This document shows positions 9,095 to 39,780 of a stretch of DNA of 39,780 nucleotides, piece after piece. Source of the DNA: Candidatus Brocadia sp. WS118 (GTDB lineage: Bacteria; Planctomycetota; Brocadiia; Brocadiales; Brocadiaceae); assembly GCA_007618135.1 (NCBI GenBank), contig PHFX01000165.1:1-39780 (forward strand). The letters are read 5' to 3'. The stretch's first letter is position 1, and every line of letters starts with the position of its first letter. The notes beneath the pieces were generated by a model. The model worked only from the letters and a program-made list of their open reading frames with translations. It was not told the origin of the DNA and ran no database searches. Both the position numbers and the translations under genes were made by a program.

Positions 9095-9552
9095 CGACAG
9101 AGGAAAAGAAGCAATTTAGAGGAGTTAAAGGTAGATACGACTTCTCAAATATGGAGGCGTTTTGTACGTGCGGTCATAAGCTTGGAATACATTGTGCGCC
9201 AAACGAAACTGGTATACGGGATTGTATGCACTCAGATTGTCAATGCAAACAATTTGTTTCTACTCCCCCAGAAACAGGGAGGGAGTTGGAAGATCAGAAG
9301 AAAATAATTTTAAAAAACTGTTATTCGTGGATAGAAAAATTCGGAAAGGAATCTGCGACAGAAGAGTTAGAAGTTCACTTAAAGTCCCTCCTCCTCTCCG
9401 AACACCGCCGATGGCAAGCGGAACTGCGGAAGAAAGTGGAGAGGATGGAAGGATATATCTTGATGCTCAATCAGGGCGTTTTTGAGAAAAGCAAAGACGG
9501 TGGATTGCTAAAACGTTCTGACGTTCTGTCCATGCTAGAGGAGGGGAAATGA
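9091..9552 (+). CDS. Hypothetical protein with zinc-like Cys/His cluster (153 aa)
   Basis: CTCGHKLGIHC followed by CMHSDCQCKQF gives at least six Cys/His ligands in the first 55 residues, then a helical, charged C-terminal half. The composition of the C-terminal half is more GC-rich than its surroundings. Overlaps of 4 nt on both sides point to one operon. The family is not recognised. Confidence 0.55.
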   Translation: MTTEEKKQFRGVKGRYDFSNMEAFCTCGHKLGIHCAPNETGIRDCMHSDCQCKQFVSTPPETGRELEDQKKIILKNCYSWIEKFGKESATEELEVHLKSLLLSEHRRWQAELRKKVERMEGYILMLNQGVFEKSKDGGLLKRSDVLSMLEEGK

Positions 9553-9971
9553 GAGAAATTAAATTCAGAGCGTGGGATAAAAATAAGAAAGTAATGACTT
9601 TTGTTGGTGAACTCGCATGGCTAGTTGGTGGCTTGTATTTTGTGGATGCAGGAGCGTGTGAGGGATTTATAGGAAAAGATGCAGAACTCATGCAATTCAC
9701 GGGTCTCCACGACAAAAACGGGAAAGAGATTTATGAGGGGGATATATTGAGGTGGTGGGTTAGTTCAACTAAAAGATTTGCAGAAGAATTACTTGTAGTT
9801 GAATGGGGTAGTGTTGGATGGATACTAAAAAGTCCATTATTTAGTAGTTTTGGCGTTCCTAAAGATAGGTCTAAATGTTCAGAAGCAAACACAATAGGCT
9901 ATATAAACAGTTCCGAAGTCATCGGCAACATATACGAAAATAGTGAGTTATTGAAAGGAGAAACACCATGA
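9549..9971 (+). CDS. YopX-family protein, copy 1
   Basis: A 140-residue product opening with MREIKFRAWDKNKKVM, the hallmark of the YopX family, followed by LMQFTGLHDKNGKEIYEGDIL (core motif) and IGNIYEN near the end. YopX proteins are common in phages and are thought to be small beta-barrel proteins; their role is not established. A second copy is at 11106 with the same blocks but a different middle, so this is either an ancient duplication or two acquisitions. Confidence 0.9.
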   Translation: MREIKFRAWDKNKKVMTFVGELAWLVGGLYFVDAGACEGFIGKDAELMQFTGLHDKNGKEIYEGDILRWWVSSTKRFAEELLVVEWGSVGWILKSPLFSSFGVPKDRSKCSEANTIGYINSSEVIGNIYENSELLKGETP

Positions 9972-10008: not shown

Positions 10009-10107
10009 ATGTTTGAAAAAGCGATGCCAACAGGAAGTAGCCTTGATATAAAGTTTCGCATACGAATCTGGAAATGGGAGTTTTGGATAGTAAAGTGGGT
10101 TCTTTAA
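10009..10107 (+). CDS. Aromatic-rich micropeptide (32 aa)
   Basis: A 32-residue product ending FRIRIWKWEFWIVKWVL, rich in Trp and basic residues, suggesting membrane association. It is preceded by a good hairpin-SD cassette and followed by the long structured RNA region. Too short for family assignment. Confidence 0.45.
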   Translation: MFEKAMPTGSSLDIKFRIRIWKWEFWIVKWVL

Positions 10108-10128
10108 CAGACAAACGATAGTGACTCA

Positions 10129-10331
10129 TGCGGGTGGAGGAAACAGGTAGACGCTATTGTCTAGGGAGGACGGCAGCCATCTGGGCGAAAGCCTGCGGGA
10201 AGTGGTCATACACGGTTCCCGCCTAGAGATTGCCGTATTCCCATGTAGGGTGACTATACGAGTACAAGCGGATTATCCGCATCAAAGTGCCAGAAATGGA
10301 TTACTGTATCTCGTCAAATCCCTACCCCGCA
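10129..10331 (+). ncRNA. Structured RNA element A (about 203 nt, tRNA-like ends)
   Basis: Closed by TGCGGG/CCCGCA (10129/10326). The 5' end, GCGGGTGG-GGAAA-AGGTAGACGC, resembles the acceptor and D-arm of a class II (Leu-type) tRNA, and GGATT/AATCC near the 3' end resembles a T-stem with an enlarged loop. In between are GGC-GAAA-GCC (10184-10193), GCGGGAA/TTCCCGC (10195/10216), ACGGCA/TGCCGT (10170/10231), TCTAGG/CCTAGA (10160/10222) and GCGGA/TCCGC (10268/10276). The TCTAGG and ACGGCA helices cross, a possible pseudoknot. Element C (10512) shares its 5', central CCATGTAGGGTGAC and 3' CTACCCC blocks. There is no anticodon arm, so it is not an ordinary tRNA. An ORF covering 10157-10531 is regarded as spurious. 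Confidence 0.65.
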
Positions 10332-10361
10332 GCAGCGACTATCGTTTGAGAAGGGTATTGG

Positions 10362-10474
10362 GTTACGGGGTAGAGGAAGTACACTCTAGCCGTTATTCAG
10401 GCGAGGATACCAGAATGGCCCTGAACAAACAGGATAAGGTATTCCATGCAGGTATCGAATCCTGCCCCCGTAAC
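10362..10474 (+). ncRNA. Structured RNA element B (113 nt, tRNA-like acceptor/T arm)
   Basis: GTTACGGGG (10362-10370) pairs perfectly with CCCCGTAAC (10466-10474). Directly inside the right strand is GCAGG-TATCGAAT-CCTGC (10448-10465), a T-arm with a TCGAAT loop carrying one extra base, stacked on the acceptor-like helix as in tRNA. Also present: GAG/CTC near 10373, GCC/GGC near 10389, GGATACC/GGTATTCC (10405/10438) and CCTG-AACAAA-CAGG (10420). There is no normal D-loop or 7-nt anticodon loop and no encoded CCA. It is best described as a tRNA-like element, or a decayed or rearranged tRNA. Confidence 0.6.
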
Positions 10475-10476
10475 TT

Positions 10477-10500
10477 AGTATCTTTCTCTCACAGAGGATA
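10477..10500 (+). repeat. ACAGAGGATA leader motif, copy 1 of 3
   Basis: GTATC, CTCT, a CAC loop, AGAG and GATAC form a bulged hairpin that presents CACAGAGGATA after element B. The same CACAGAGGATA follows element C (10691-10701) and a short hairpin at 10939-10949, both directly upstream of strong AGGAGG sites. A recurring motif between RNA structure and ribosome-binding site suggests a shared leader element. Confidence 0.55.
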
Positions 10501-10511
10501 CAGGTACATTG

Positions 10512-10679
10512 AAAGCTGGGTGGCGGAATAGGTAGACGCTTAAAAATATACTGAAGGTGAGGTGGTGTCTTCCGTATAAGGAATAGACCATTTGACCATG
10601 TAGGGTGACAAAGTAGGATTCGACTGACGTCAGCTAGATAAACCGTAAGGAACTCCTAACAAATCTCTACCCCAGCTTT
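10512..10679 (+). ncRNA. Structured RNA element C (168 nt), homologue of element A
   Basis: Closed by AAAGCTGGG/CCCAGCTTT, 9 perfect bp (10512/10671). The 5' block (GGGTGGCGGAATAGGTAGACG) is nearly that of element A and has a Leu-tRNA-like D-arm with GCG/CGC stem; CCATGTAGGGTGAC (10597-10610) and CTACCCC (10668-10674) are also shared. The core differs: GGTGTCTTCC/GGAATAGACC (10564/10580) makes a hairpin and CTGACGTCAG is palindromic. The closing stem changes from GCGGG/CCCGC in A to GCTGGG/CCCAGC here with pairing kept, which is covariation. An AGGAGG site and the Acb2-like gene follow, so C may be part of that gene's leader. Confidence 0.65.
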
Positions 10680-10719
10680 GAGTGTATCTGCACAGAGGAT
10701 AGGAAGGAGGTGAAAGATT

Positions 10720-10911
10720 ATGAGTTTTCAATACGTTCAGCCGACAGAAGCACAGAAAGAGTTGATGCAACACTACCGAGATAGGTACGAAGCATTAGCC
10801 GAAGAATTGAAGAAAGACGTTTCGGCAAGTCGTGGGCTATCTTTAGCCATGACGAAACTGGAAGAGAGCGCATTTTGGTTAAACAAGGCAATTACGGAAA
10901 ACGATAAGTAA
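10720..10911 (+). CDS. Acb2-like cyclic-nucleotide sponge (anti-CBASS), Acb2/Tad1 hairpin family
   Basis: A 63-residue product with the FxYxxPTxxQ opening, a first helix, and the family hallmark SRGLSLAMTKLEESAFWLNKAI at residues 36-57 (compare the recalled consensus SREkSLAlTKLEEaxMWaNkAI). Acb2 proteins are small helical hairpins that assemble into oligomers and bind the cyclic di- and trinucleotides made by CBASS, starving the effector. The match is to the short stand-alone form. AGGAGG precedes the ATG. It lies among small accessory genes, the usual place for anti-defence genes. The family call is from recalled motifs, not a search. Confidence 0.78.
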   Translation: MSFQYVQPTEAQKELMQHYRDRYEALAEELKKDVSASRGLSLAMTKLEESAFWLNKAITENDK

Positions 10912-38575: not shown

Positions 38576-39780
38576 ATGAAATATTCTGATCTTGGAAGAC
38601 TAGCAAAAAACAAACAACCCGATAAACTTTCTTCTTATTCTGATGAAGAAGCGGGAAGGTTAGTTGCTGGCATGTACCCACAGTATGGGAAAATGGTAAC
38701 TGAAGAAGAAACCATAGAGTCTCCCTCTTTTGAAACACCGAGTTATTCAGCTTATGAAGCACCTGATGTTTCATACGAAGCGCCTGTATATGAGACAAAA
38801 CAATCACCGTTTGTTCCACAACAGACAACTATACCAGGAAAAACAGAAACTCTATCTGCAACGACTGATCCTGAGCAAGCTATACGATCACAACCTCCAA
38901 AATCATGGATGGATAAAGCAAAAGATTTTGCTGTAGAAAATCTTCCCGTAATAGGAAGTGTTGCGGGATCGGTGCTTGGTGGAGTAGCCGCTGGGGGATT
39001 TGGCGCTATTCCTGCCGCTGGAGCAGGTTCTTTACTTGGAGAAACGTTAAAAAGAAAAATAAAAGGTGAAGAGGTAACCCCTGAGTCTCTTAAAACAGCC
39101 GCAGGATCTGGTATTGCTGGAGAGGTTATAGGAATGGGCGCAGGTCAAGTTGTTAAAGGGGTAGTATCTTCAATTGCTAAAAATGCCGCAAAAACTTTTG
39201 GAAAGTTTAATGCATCCCAAGCATTAAAAGTAGTTCAGGAACACGGAAAAGACATAATAAATCTTATAGAAAAATATGTTCCACGAAATGCGGGATATGA
39301 TGAGGTGTTAGGGTCAATAGAAAAACGGGGAAGGGGAGGGGTATTTGATGATATATTAAGGCAATCTGAGGATGCAATACAAAGTGTCGCTAAAACGGTA
39401 AAAGATAAAATTCCCGTTGATGAAATACTGGACTCATTAAAGTCACAACGTGATTTATTAGCCACACAAATAGGAAATGCGAAAAAACTTGCACAAATAG
39501 ATAAAATAATTCTTGAGGCTCAGAAGCGATATAAAAAAGGTATTAGTGTTTCCGAGGCTCTTAAAATACTTCGTGCGGGTAATGAGGCTTTTGGGAAAAA
39601 TGTTGTTGATGTCGATGTTGCTGATGCGGTAACTACCGCCGCACAGAAGCTGGAAACAAACGCTATTCGTAACATATTAAAAACTCGTTTTCCTGCTATT
39701 GCAGATGCATTGGAAACACAGTCGGATATATTAACTCTTAGACCAATACTTGAAAAAGCCCGATCTGTTGTTGCAAATGA
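38576..39780 (+). CDS. Virion ejection protein, N-terminal part (continues at 1..1468)
   Basis: Starts with KYSDLGRLAKNKQPDKLSSYSDEEAGRLVAGMYPQY, a motif typical of large phage internal or ejection proteins. A Glu/Pro/Tyr-rich disordered stretch follows, then a glycine-zipper-like membrane-active segment (LPVIGSVAGSVLGGVAAGGF, about residues 121-140) and long helices. The full product is 842 residues with the altered M23 domain at its C-terminus (see 1..1468). The frame is continuous across the 144-bp repeat. Such a protein could open or line a channel across the host envelope. It starts 1 nt after the upstream stop. Confidence 0.8.
   Translation, partial: MKYSDLGRLAKNKQPDKLSSYSDEEAGRLVAGMYPQYGKMVTEEETIESPSFETPSYSAYEAPDVSYEAPVYETKQSPFVPQQTTIPGKTETLSATTDPEQAIRSQPPKSWMDKAKDFAVENLPVIGSVAGSVLGGVAAGGFGAIPAAGAGSLLGETLKRKIKGEEVTPESLKTAAGSGIAGEVIGMGAGQVVKGVVSSIAKNAAKTFGKFNASQALKVVQEHGKDIINLIEKYVPRNAGYDEVLGSIEKRGRGGVFDDILRQSEDAIQSVAKTVKDKIPVDEILDSLKSQRDLLATQIGNAKKLAQIDKIILEAQKRYKKGISVSEALKILRAGNEAFGKNVVDVDVADAVTTAAQKLETNAIRNILKTRFPAIADALETQSDILTLRPILEKARSVVAN
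39637..39780. repeat. Terminal direct repeat, right copy
   Basis: Identical to bases 1-144; see there. Joining the ends keeps one open reading frame. Confidence 0.9.

Follow-up and report, generated by a model that had tools for sequence, protein, structure and literature searches.

The window, by which we mean the whole 39,780-nucleotide stretch of DNA that was analysed, contains a gene-free interval at positions 10108-10719, which is flanked by a YopX gene (9549-9971) and by a gene for a 63-amino-acid protein (10720-10911); the RNA elements, their parts and the latter gene lie on the forward strand. The latter gene starts 29 nt 3' of the last of three RNA elements in the interval, outside the RNA itself, and its product carries an Acb2/Tad1 hairpin domain of the anti-CBASS/anti-Thoeris type (Pfam PF24729, E 1.4e-13, 51.2 bits against a cut-off of 27). 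Members of the Acb2/Tad1 hairpin family are cyclic-nucleotide sponges that block CBASS and Thoeris, and the domain match suggests that this protein is an anti-CBASS or anti-Thoeris sponge. The last ~144 bases of the window (39637-39780) repeat positions 1-144. Very probably, then, the window represents an entire phage genome of ~39.6 kb that was assembled as a circle and sorted into the same bin as a bacterium. In the 16S sequence of this bin (L333) there are sites for the anammox primers Amx368 and Amx820, so that the bin resembles a Brocadia-type anammox planctomycete, a possible host of the phage. When related phages were sought through the terminase, a single short contig was recovered. 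Two short motifs occur around the interval. The sequence CACAGAGGATA is found exactly three times within 460 bases, at 10490, 10691 and 10939, where it precedes the third RNA element and the next two genes, and it is a putative repeated leader or processing site. A boxA-like sequence, GTTCTTTAACA, which resembles those of rRNA leaders, lies at 10099-10109, just 5' of the first element; boxA antitermination was rejected as a trait of the RNA family described below, with boxA found in 5 of 91 relatives where about one is expected.

Three inverted repeats delimit the RNA elements, which we call A (10112-10348), B (10348-10488) and C (10501-10690). The original prediction had closed each element with a stem of 6-9 bp; the stems are present, but they are considerably longer than this, with repeats at 10112-10134/10326-10348, 10348-10370/10466-10488 and 10501-10520/10671-10690. 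The predicted folding energies are -97 kcal/mol for A (z -5.5), -63.1 kcal/mol for B (z -6.4) and -65.3 kcal/mol for C (z -5.4), and each element folds better than all 200 of its dinucleotide shuffles. The inverted repeats and these z-scores bear out the proposal of a cluster of structured RNAs. The sequence blocks that A and C were said to share, a Leu-tRNA-like 5' block and a CTACCCC 3' block, were verified in the window as CCATGTAGGGTGAC, CAAATCYCTACCCC and AAYAGGTAGACGCT, and the claim that the elements have neither an anticodon arm nor a CCA end is correct for A, B and C alike. ARAGORN called no tRNA or tmRNA in this stretch, and Rfam 15 gave zero gathering-level matches to it and two unrelated sub-threshold matches (E of at least 4, with E up to 10 considered); the covariance-model comparison proposed with the prediction (tRNA, tmRNA, group I intron, ROOL and GOLLD) thus produced no match to any Rfam 15 family. 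The only long open reading frame across the region, 10157-10531, had been named as a possible conserved protein that would compete with the RNA reading; neither Pfam nor tblastn against 50,697 phage records gave it a match.

Elements A and C share an architecture that we term the expanded form, with a closing helix of ~20 bp and a hairpin inserted into the T-loop after T54. In A, the closing or acceptor helix (5' strand 10112-10134) is 83% complementary, and the Leu-like D-arm GAGGAAACAGGTAGACGC (10137-10154), which is a direct repeat with C and aligns to the D-arm of the family model, has a degenerate D-stem. The T-stem of A, GTAGGG/CCCTAC, lies with its inserted hairpin (TGACTATACGAG...CTCGTCAAAT) at 10245-10325; this pattern is common to 95 viral stretches, and the T-stem covaries among the 50 expanded sequences compared below. 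Between these arms is a middle domain (10160-10244) with the topology seen in the family. The crossing helices that had been proposed for A are compatible with this pseudoknot topology, but the hand-assigned helices are not the top automated choice. By eye, two stacked helices with an internal loop can be drawn, H1 at 10160-10164/10223-10227 and H2 at 10165-10175/10231-10242; an automated pseudoknot search picked other helices (p 0.035), and the exact pairing of H1 and H2 is best regarded as a model.

In C, the 5' strand of the closing helix (10501-10520) is followed directly by a canonical Leu-like D-arm, TGGCGGAATAGGTAGACGC (10521-10539), identical to the family consensus. The middle domain occupies the position expected from the family (10540-10599) and ends in CAT; the automated search found no pseudoknot in C, and a possible loop pseudoknot at 10547-10551/10574-10578 was drawn by eye. 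The T-stem, GTAGGG/CTCTAC, and its divergent inserted hairpin (TGACAAAGTAGGA...TCCTAACAAAT) lie at 10600-10670, as aligned by the family model. A search for close relatives of this T-arm variant found none; its sole match has no family-like fold and looks like a chance match.

Element B is a tRNA-like RNA of a third type, closed by a continuous 23-bp helix (5' strand 10348-10370) that is seen both as an inverted repeat and in the minimum free energy (MFE) fold. The same fold gives a D-arm-like hairpin, TAGAG-GAAGTACA-CTCTA (10371-10388), and a T-arm, GCAGG-TATCGAAT-CCTGC (10448-10465), with an 8-nt T-loop. The region between them (10396-10447) holds a pseudoknot found by the automated search, with H1 at 10396-10401/10420-10425 and H2 at 10405-10411/10438-10445; its score of 30.5 compares with a shuffled mean of 3.9, and none of 200 shuffles scored as high. 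The pseudoknot and the long helix match the expanded type, and the T-arm insertion is limited to one base. The model of the expanded form (R1, below) gives B 39 bits with filters off, which is no better than the 36.1 bits of a bona fide host tRNA gene; the assignment of B to the family is therefore a structural prediction based on shared architecture and not on model score. The same type of T-arm is found in two related loci, L118 and L322. In L118, an element of the B type with the T-loop TATCGAAT and an encoded CCA lies on the reverse strand ~350 nt before an expanded element, in the order B-type element, tRNA-like gene, expanded element.

A gapped DNA pattern derived from the shared T-arm blocks matched six viral contigs; in every one, a T-arm of the form GTAGGGTGACTWTACGRG...CTCGKCAAATCCCTACC is preceded by a variable middle and, further upstream, by a Leu-tRNA-like D-arm. 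The pattern TGACTATACGAGN{28,58}CTCGNCAAAT matched 95 viral stretches and a further 12 in bacterial genome records, which include Antrihabitans, Arthrobacter, Salipiger, a Pseudolabrys MAG, and MAGs of Patescibacteria, Acidobacteria and Planctomycetes. Most stretches with this T-arm signature have the Leu-like D-arm and an extended helix. The T-stems pair at six of six positions in almost all relatives despite their varied sequences (GCAAGG, GCAGGG, GCGAGG, GTAACG, GCCATG and others), and the closing helices of expanded relatives reach 21 bp with unrelated sequences. The 14-mer CCATGTAGGGTGAC on its own gave 51 matches lacking the rest of the element, which we consider to be chance.

BLAST of the window stretch against phages returned mainly short matches to the tRNA-Leu-like D-arm, and these led to a second, compact form in SPP1 and phi3T. 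Its acceptor helix is 7 bp long, its D-arm is the same, and its middle domain is followed by a T-arm with the loop UGCAAAU. The compact form is present without annotation in SPP1 (between genes 9 and 11), phi3T, Listeria phage B054 and phages of Brochothrix, Weissella, Leuconostoc and Bacillus australimaris, and the compact-form pattern matched at least 120 viral stretches. The two forms have in common a frame that consists of an acceptor helix, the D-arm GTGGCGGAATAGGTAGACGC, a 6-bp T-stem and a conserved U ahead of the T-stem. The length of the compact acceptor helix is sharply defined: among the matches listed, the 108 parsed members pair with frequencies of.98,.98,.98,.98,.95,.94 and.86 over seven positions, and then.59; in the expanded form, pairing persists at ~.6-.7 out to 21 bp. 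The site of the expanded T-loop insert lies between T54 and compact position 55, so that T is followed by GACTATACGAG...CTCG and then by KCAAAT. Just 3' of the element in SPP1 (~711-760 of the locus, L196) is a second, miniature tRNA-like set, ACGGAC...GGCTGGTGTCAGT...CGGGTTCAATTCCCG...GTCCGT, which has D-like and T-like arms and no anticodon arm.

The helices of the frame covary strongly in both forms. The expanded form (n=50) shows 450 double-sided changes where column shuffles give 165, with a covariation value of 0.594 compared with 0.13-0.17 for slid controls, and helix 1 shows covariation at all 21 positions; in the compact form (n=84) there are 388 double-sided changes against 128 in shuffles (0.610, slid controls 0.07-0.15). 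Two covariance models were built: R1 from 50 expanded phage sequences, with the window sequences left out, and R2 from compact sequences, with SPP1, phi3T and other laboratory phages left out. On the window, R1 matches A at 10114-10346 (92.4 bits, E 8.9e-20) and C at 10500-10691 (79 bits, E 9.6e-17). R2 recovers the held-out elements of SPP1 (81 bits) and phi3T (67 bits), together with those of Brochothrix, Weissella, Leuconostoc and Bacillus phages, and scores between 55 and 83 bits in Listeria B054 (70), Lactobacillus phages Lenus and Sha1, Enterococcus phage VEsP-1 and a Hujiaoplasma phage. R1 has no match in 293 other genomes of the phylum of the host bin, so that the RNA is not a chromosomal one of that lineage. 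From these sequence comparisons we conclude with high confidence that A and C are members of an RNA family widespread in phages. The original reading of the elements as tRNA-like is strongly supported, since hundreds of phage RNAs whose Leu-tRNA-like frame covaries are homologues of A and C; the alternative that the three elements form one large non-coding RNA is not supported, as each element closes on itself and the relatives usually occur singly.

The middle domain stands in the place of the anticodon and variable arms. The share of members with crossing helices in the order H1-H2-H1'-H2' that score at least 24 is 46% for the compact and 44% for the expanded form, compared with 11% and 13% for dinucleotide shuffles, and a stem of at least 7 bp abutting the conserved AT before the T-stem is present in 35% of compact members (8% of shuffles) and 31% of expanded members (9%). 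A mini-hairpin directly 3' of the D-arm is weakly above shuffles. Counted over homologous pairs, changes in the predicted pseudoknot helices are compensatory in 11 cases, one-sided in 10 and broken in 16, and the slid controls give 3/4/9 and 0/6/20; L233/L243 and L254/L275 are the best pairs, with five and three compensatory changes and none broken in either. The pseudoknot topology is thus to be read as a predicted trend across the family, unproven for individual members. A further property of the middle domain is that it is swapped: 21 of 36 pairs with at least 150 nt of homologous flanks (identity mostly 75-99%) have non-homologous middles. The flanks of L212 and L310 are 95% and 98.5% identical and the 400 nt downstream of L208 and L235 are 99.5% identical, and in both pairs the middles are non-homologous; conversely, 25 pairs have a common middle and no flank homology. 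This pattern of sequence conservation indicates a constant frame in which the middle is an exchangeable allele.

Taken together, our computations show that the frame is under strong selection for pairing, that it has no decoding arm, and that its middle is structured, usually pseudoknotted and exchangeable. The family appears to be a mimic of tRNA and not a tRNA proper. The compact form has the 7-bp acceptor helix, D-arm and T-arm of a tRNA, and the expanded form, including A and C, exceeds 7 bp; an anticodon arm with a 7-nt loop is absent, and the middles show pseudoknots or other folds in its place. Neither the window nor the held-out elements reach a gathering-level score for tRNA (RF00005) or an ARAGORN call.

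We propose that these RNAs are tRNA mimics which undergo processing, do not decode and display variable pseudoknots, most likely in the role of anti-defence decoys or inhibitors, and we give this statement as a whole an even chance of being correct. The elements would be stand-alone non-coding RNAs cut from longer transcripts, with the compact form matured by the enzymes of tRNA maturation and the expanded form probably released by nucleases acting on its long closing helix, which would be a poor substrate for RNase P. Whether 3' maturation is of the tRNA type is uncertain, because the discriminator base is not conserved and CCA is generally not encoded. The RNAs would not decode; their tRNA-like elbow may be a stable or recognised frame that displays the variable pseudoknot. 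The most likely role of the pseudoknot would be to divert or inhibit host defence proteins with affinity for tRNA or pseudoknot RNA, and swaps of the domain may follow the changing defences of the host. We rank an anti-defence function first because a constant frame with alleles that can be exchanged is what an arms race typically produces. The association with defence is that of one locus, the window, with its Acb2/Tad1-domain gene next to C; known anti-defence families are not enriched among 112 downstream neighbour proteins of the relatives. A literal decoy for anticodon nucleases is unlikely, since there is no anticodon loop to cut; decoys for other tRNA-binding or pseudoknot-binding defence proteins would be compatible with the evidence. 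In a more specific version, a constant tRNA-like chassis would carry interchangeable pseudoknots, each allele blocking a different defence protein, and the alleles would be traded by recombination in the manner of protein anti-defence genes; this we put forward tentatively, as a possibility that is somewhat more doubtful than probable.

The genomic context of the relatives bears on a second explanation, raised in the original prediction as mosaic regulatory leaders, in which the element is a cis-acting leader: folded RNA at the 5' end that would govern downstream phage genes in the manner of an attenuator, an antiterminator or a riboswitch. In several Firmicutes phages the element sits between a regulator, of the ArpU/RinA type or other, and HNH/terminase genes, the neighbours are mostly co-directional, and an intrinsic terminator lies downstream of some compact elements (17% of compact elements against a background of 2.6%; expanded elements are not above background). 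There is, however, no conserved downstream gene, with no Pfam, PADLOC or PHROG family matching more than three of the 112 neighbour proteins, and no expression-platform pattern is common to all. Several elements adjoin real tRNA genes or sit in tRNA arrays (L190, L118, VEsP-1 and Lenus), and a leader would have no need for an acceptor helix of exactly 7 bp, as in the compact form. We consider a cis-acting leader unlikely. No promoter signal above background was found ahead of the elements. In the L190 record, from Patescibacteria, a single array comprises over 20 tRNAs, a tmRNA and two elements of the expanded form; the record is probably a phage with a large tRNA set. Two of the 112 neighbour proteins, downstream of expanded elements, are RNA ligases; a link to tRNA repair is possible, and two are too few to judge.

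A third explanation is that the RNAs compete in tRNA maturation or translation, with the elbow and a 12-13 bp helix occupying RNase P, RNase Z, tRNA-modifying enzymes or the tRNA sites of the ribosome and so damping host translation. The D-loop and T-loop residues that make elbow contacts are conserved, the expanded form would not be easily cleaved, and the elbow is read by RNase P, the ribosomal L1 stalk, T-boxes and many enzymes (PMC4810234). However, with G at position 55 of the compact T-loop and an interruption in the expanded one, normal elbow recognition should be weakened, and the swapped, hypervariable middle is left unexplained; we regard such competition as quite unlikely.

The long closing helix of the expanded form also recalls the bacterial Y RNA YrlA, in which a long 5'/3' basal stem is combined with D, T and acceptor-like arms (PMC8394870), and the elements might be phage-borne relatives that tether a ring protein to an exonuclease through their basal stem and tRNA-like domain. 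This is very improbable: there is no Rfam match to Y RNA in the window or in 10 related loci, no Ro/Rsr-type protein among the scanned neighbours, and no basal stem beyond 7 bp in the compact form.

The T-loop insert invites a reading as intron-bearing tRNA-Leu genes, with introns in the T-loop and anticodon region that would be spliced to give a working tRNA-Leu; excision of GAC...CTCG from A leaves a perfect T-loop, TTCAAAT. Intron sites in the T-loop and anticodon region occur in archaeal tRNAs. The hosts here are bacterial, however, the anticodon arm is missing even from the compact relatives, which have no T-loop insert, many members have G at position 55 and would yield TGCAAAT, and the middles are unrelated between close phages, so this reading is largely refuted and retains very little credibility. 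Functionless tRNA-gene remnants, either attachment-site fragments or decaying phage tRNAs, have in their favour the close likeness of the D-arm to real tRNA-Leu and the tRNA fragments that phages carry at att sites, but they are refuted by the strong covariation of the frame helices. The element among the head genes of the lytic phage SPP1 and the three intact elements of the window also count against them, and their probability is practically negligible.

The anti-defence mimic proposed above, if correct, would amount to a general RNA-based counter-defence. A conserved RNA family that is missing from Rfam 15 seems to be present in hundreds of phages, whose hosts include Firmicutes, Actinobacteria, Proteobacteria, Patescibacteria, Planctomycetes and others, and it would account for some of the "gene-free" gaps in phage genomes. 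SPP1 and phi3T are phages of B. subtilis with decades of study behind them, in which the element has gone unannotated and is open to deletion and assay. The exchange of alleles of one RNA domain within a constant tRNA-like frame is an unusual mode of non-coding RNA evolution, and points to an arms race.

The family is apparently undescribed; we found no prior report in the open literature, which leaves out most subscription papers and preprints, so that an earlier description is possible. It shares with ROOL, GOLLD and other large phage RNAs a phage location, often near tRNAs, but these are much larger, and Rfam matched neither ROOL, GOLLD nor group I introns in the window or the 10 related loci. 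Its closest likeness to type II tRNA-Leu (RF00005) is in the D-arm GTGGCGGAATAGGTAGACGC, U8/G9, U48 and, in the compact form, the 7-bp acceptor helix; unlike tRNA-Leu, the family has no anticodon arm, a pseudoknotted middle of 41-133 nt in the compact form, a 6-bp T-stem, a T-loop that is UGCAAAU or interrupted by a hairpin, and no conserved CCA. tmRNA (RF00023) also combines tRNA-like ends with pseudoknots and is present in some phages, but it lacks the Leu-type D-stem of the family; ARAGORN called no tag frame, and Rfam gave no reliable tmRNA match, with one partial match of 13.8 bits in the SPP1 locus. From YrlA, which the expanded form resembles in its long basal stem and its tRNA-like arms, the family is set apart by the compact form and by its swappable pseudoknotted domain. 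The ToxI RNAs of type III toxin-antitoxin systems (PMC12373285) are likewise small pseudoknots in a setting of phage defence, and a link to them is hypothetical; the family has no repeat array and no toxin gene, and it has a tRNA-like frame. Plant-virus tRNA-like structures and other viral tRNA mimics provide the precedent for virus-encoded mimicry of tRNA, including its elbow (PMC4810234), but whereas those form the ends of RNA genomes, the RNAs described here are stand-alone elements in dsDNA phages.
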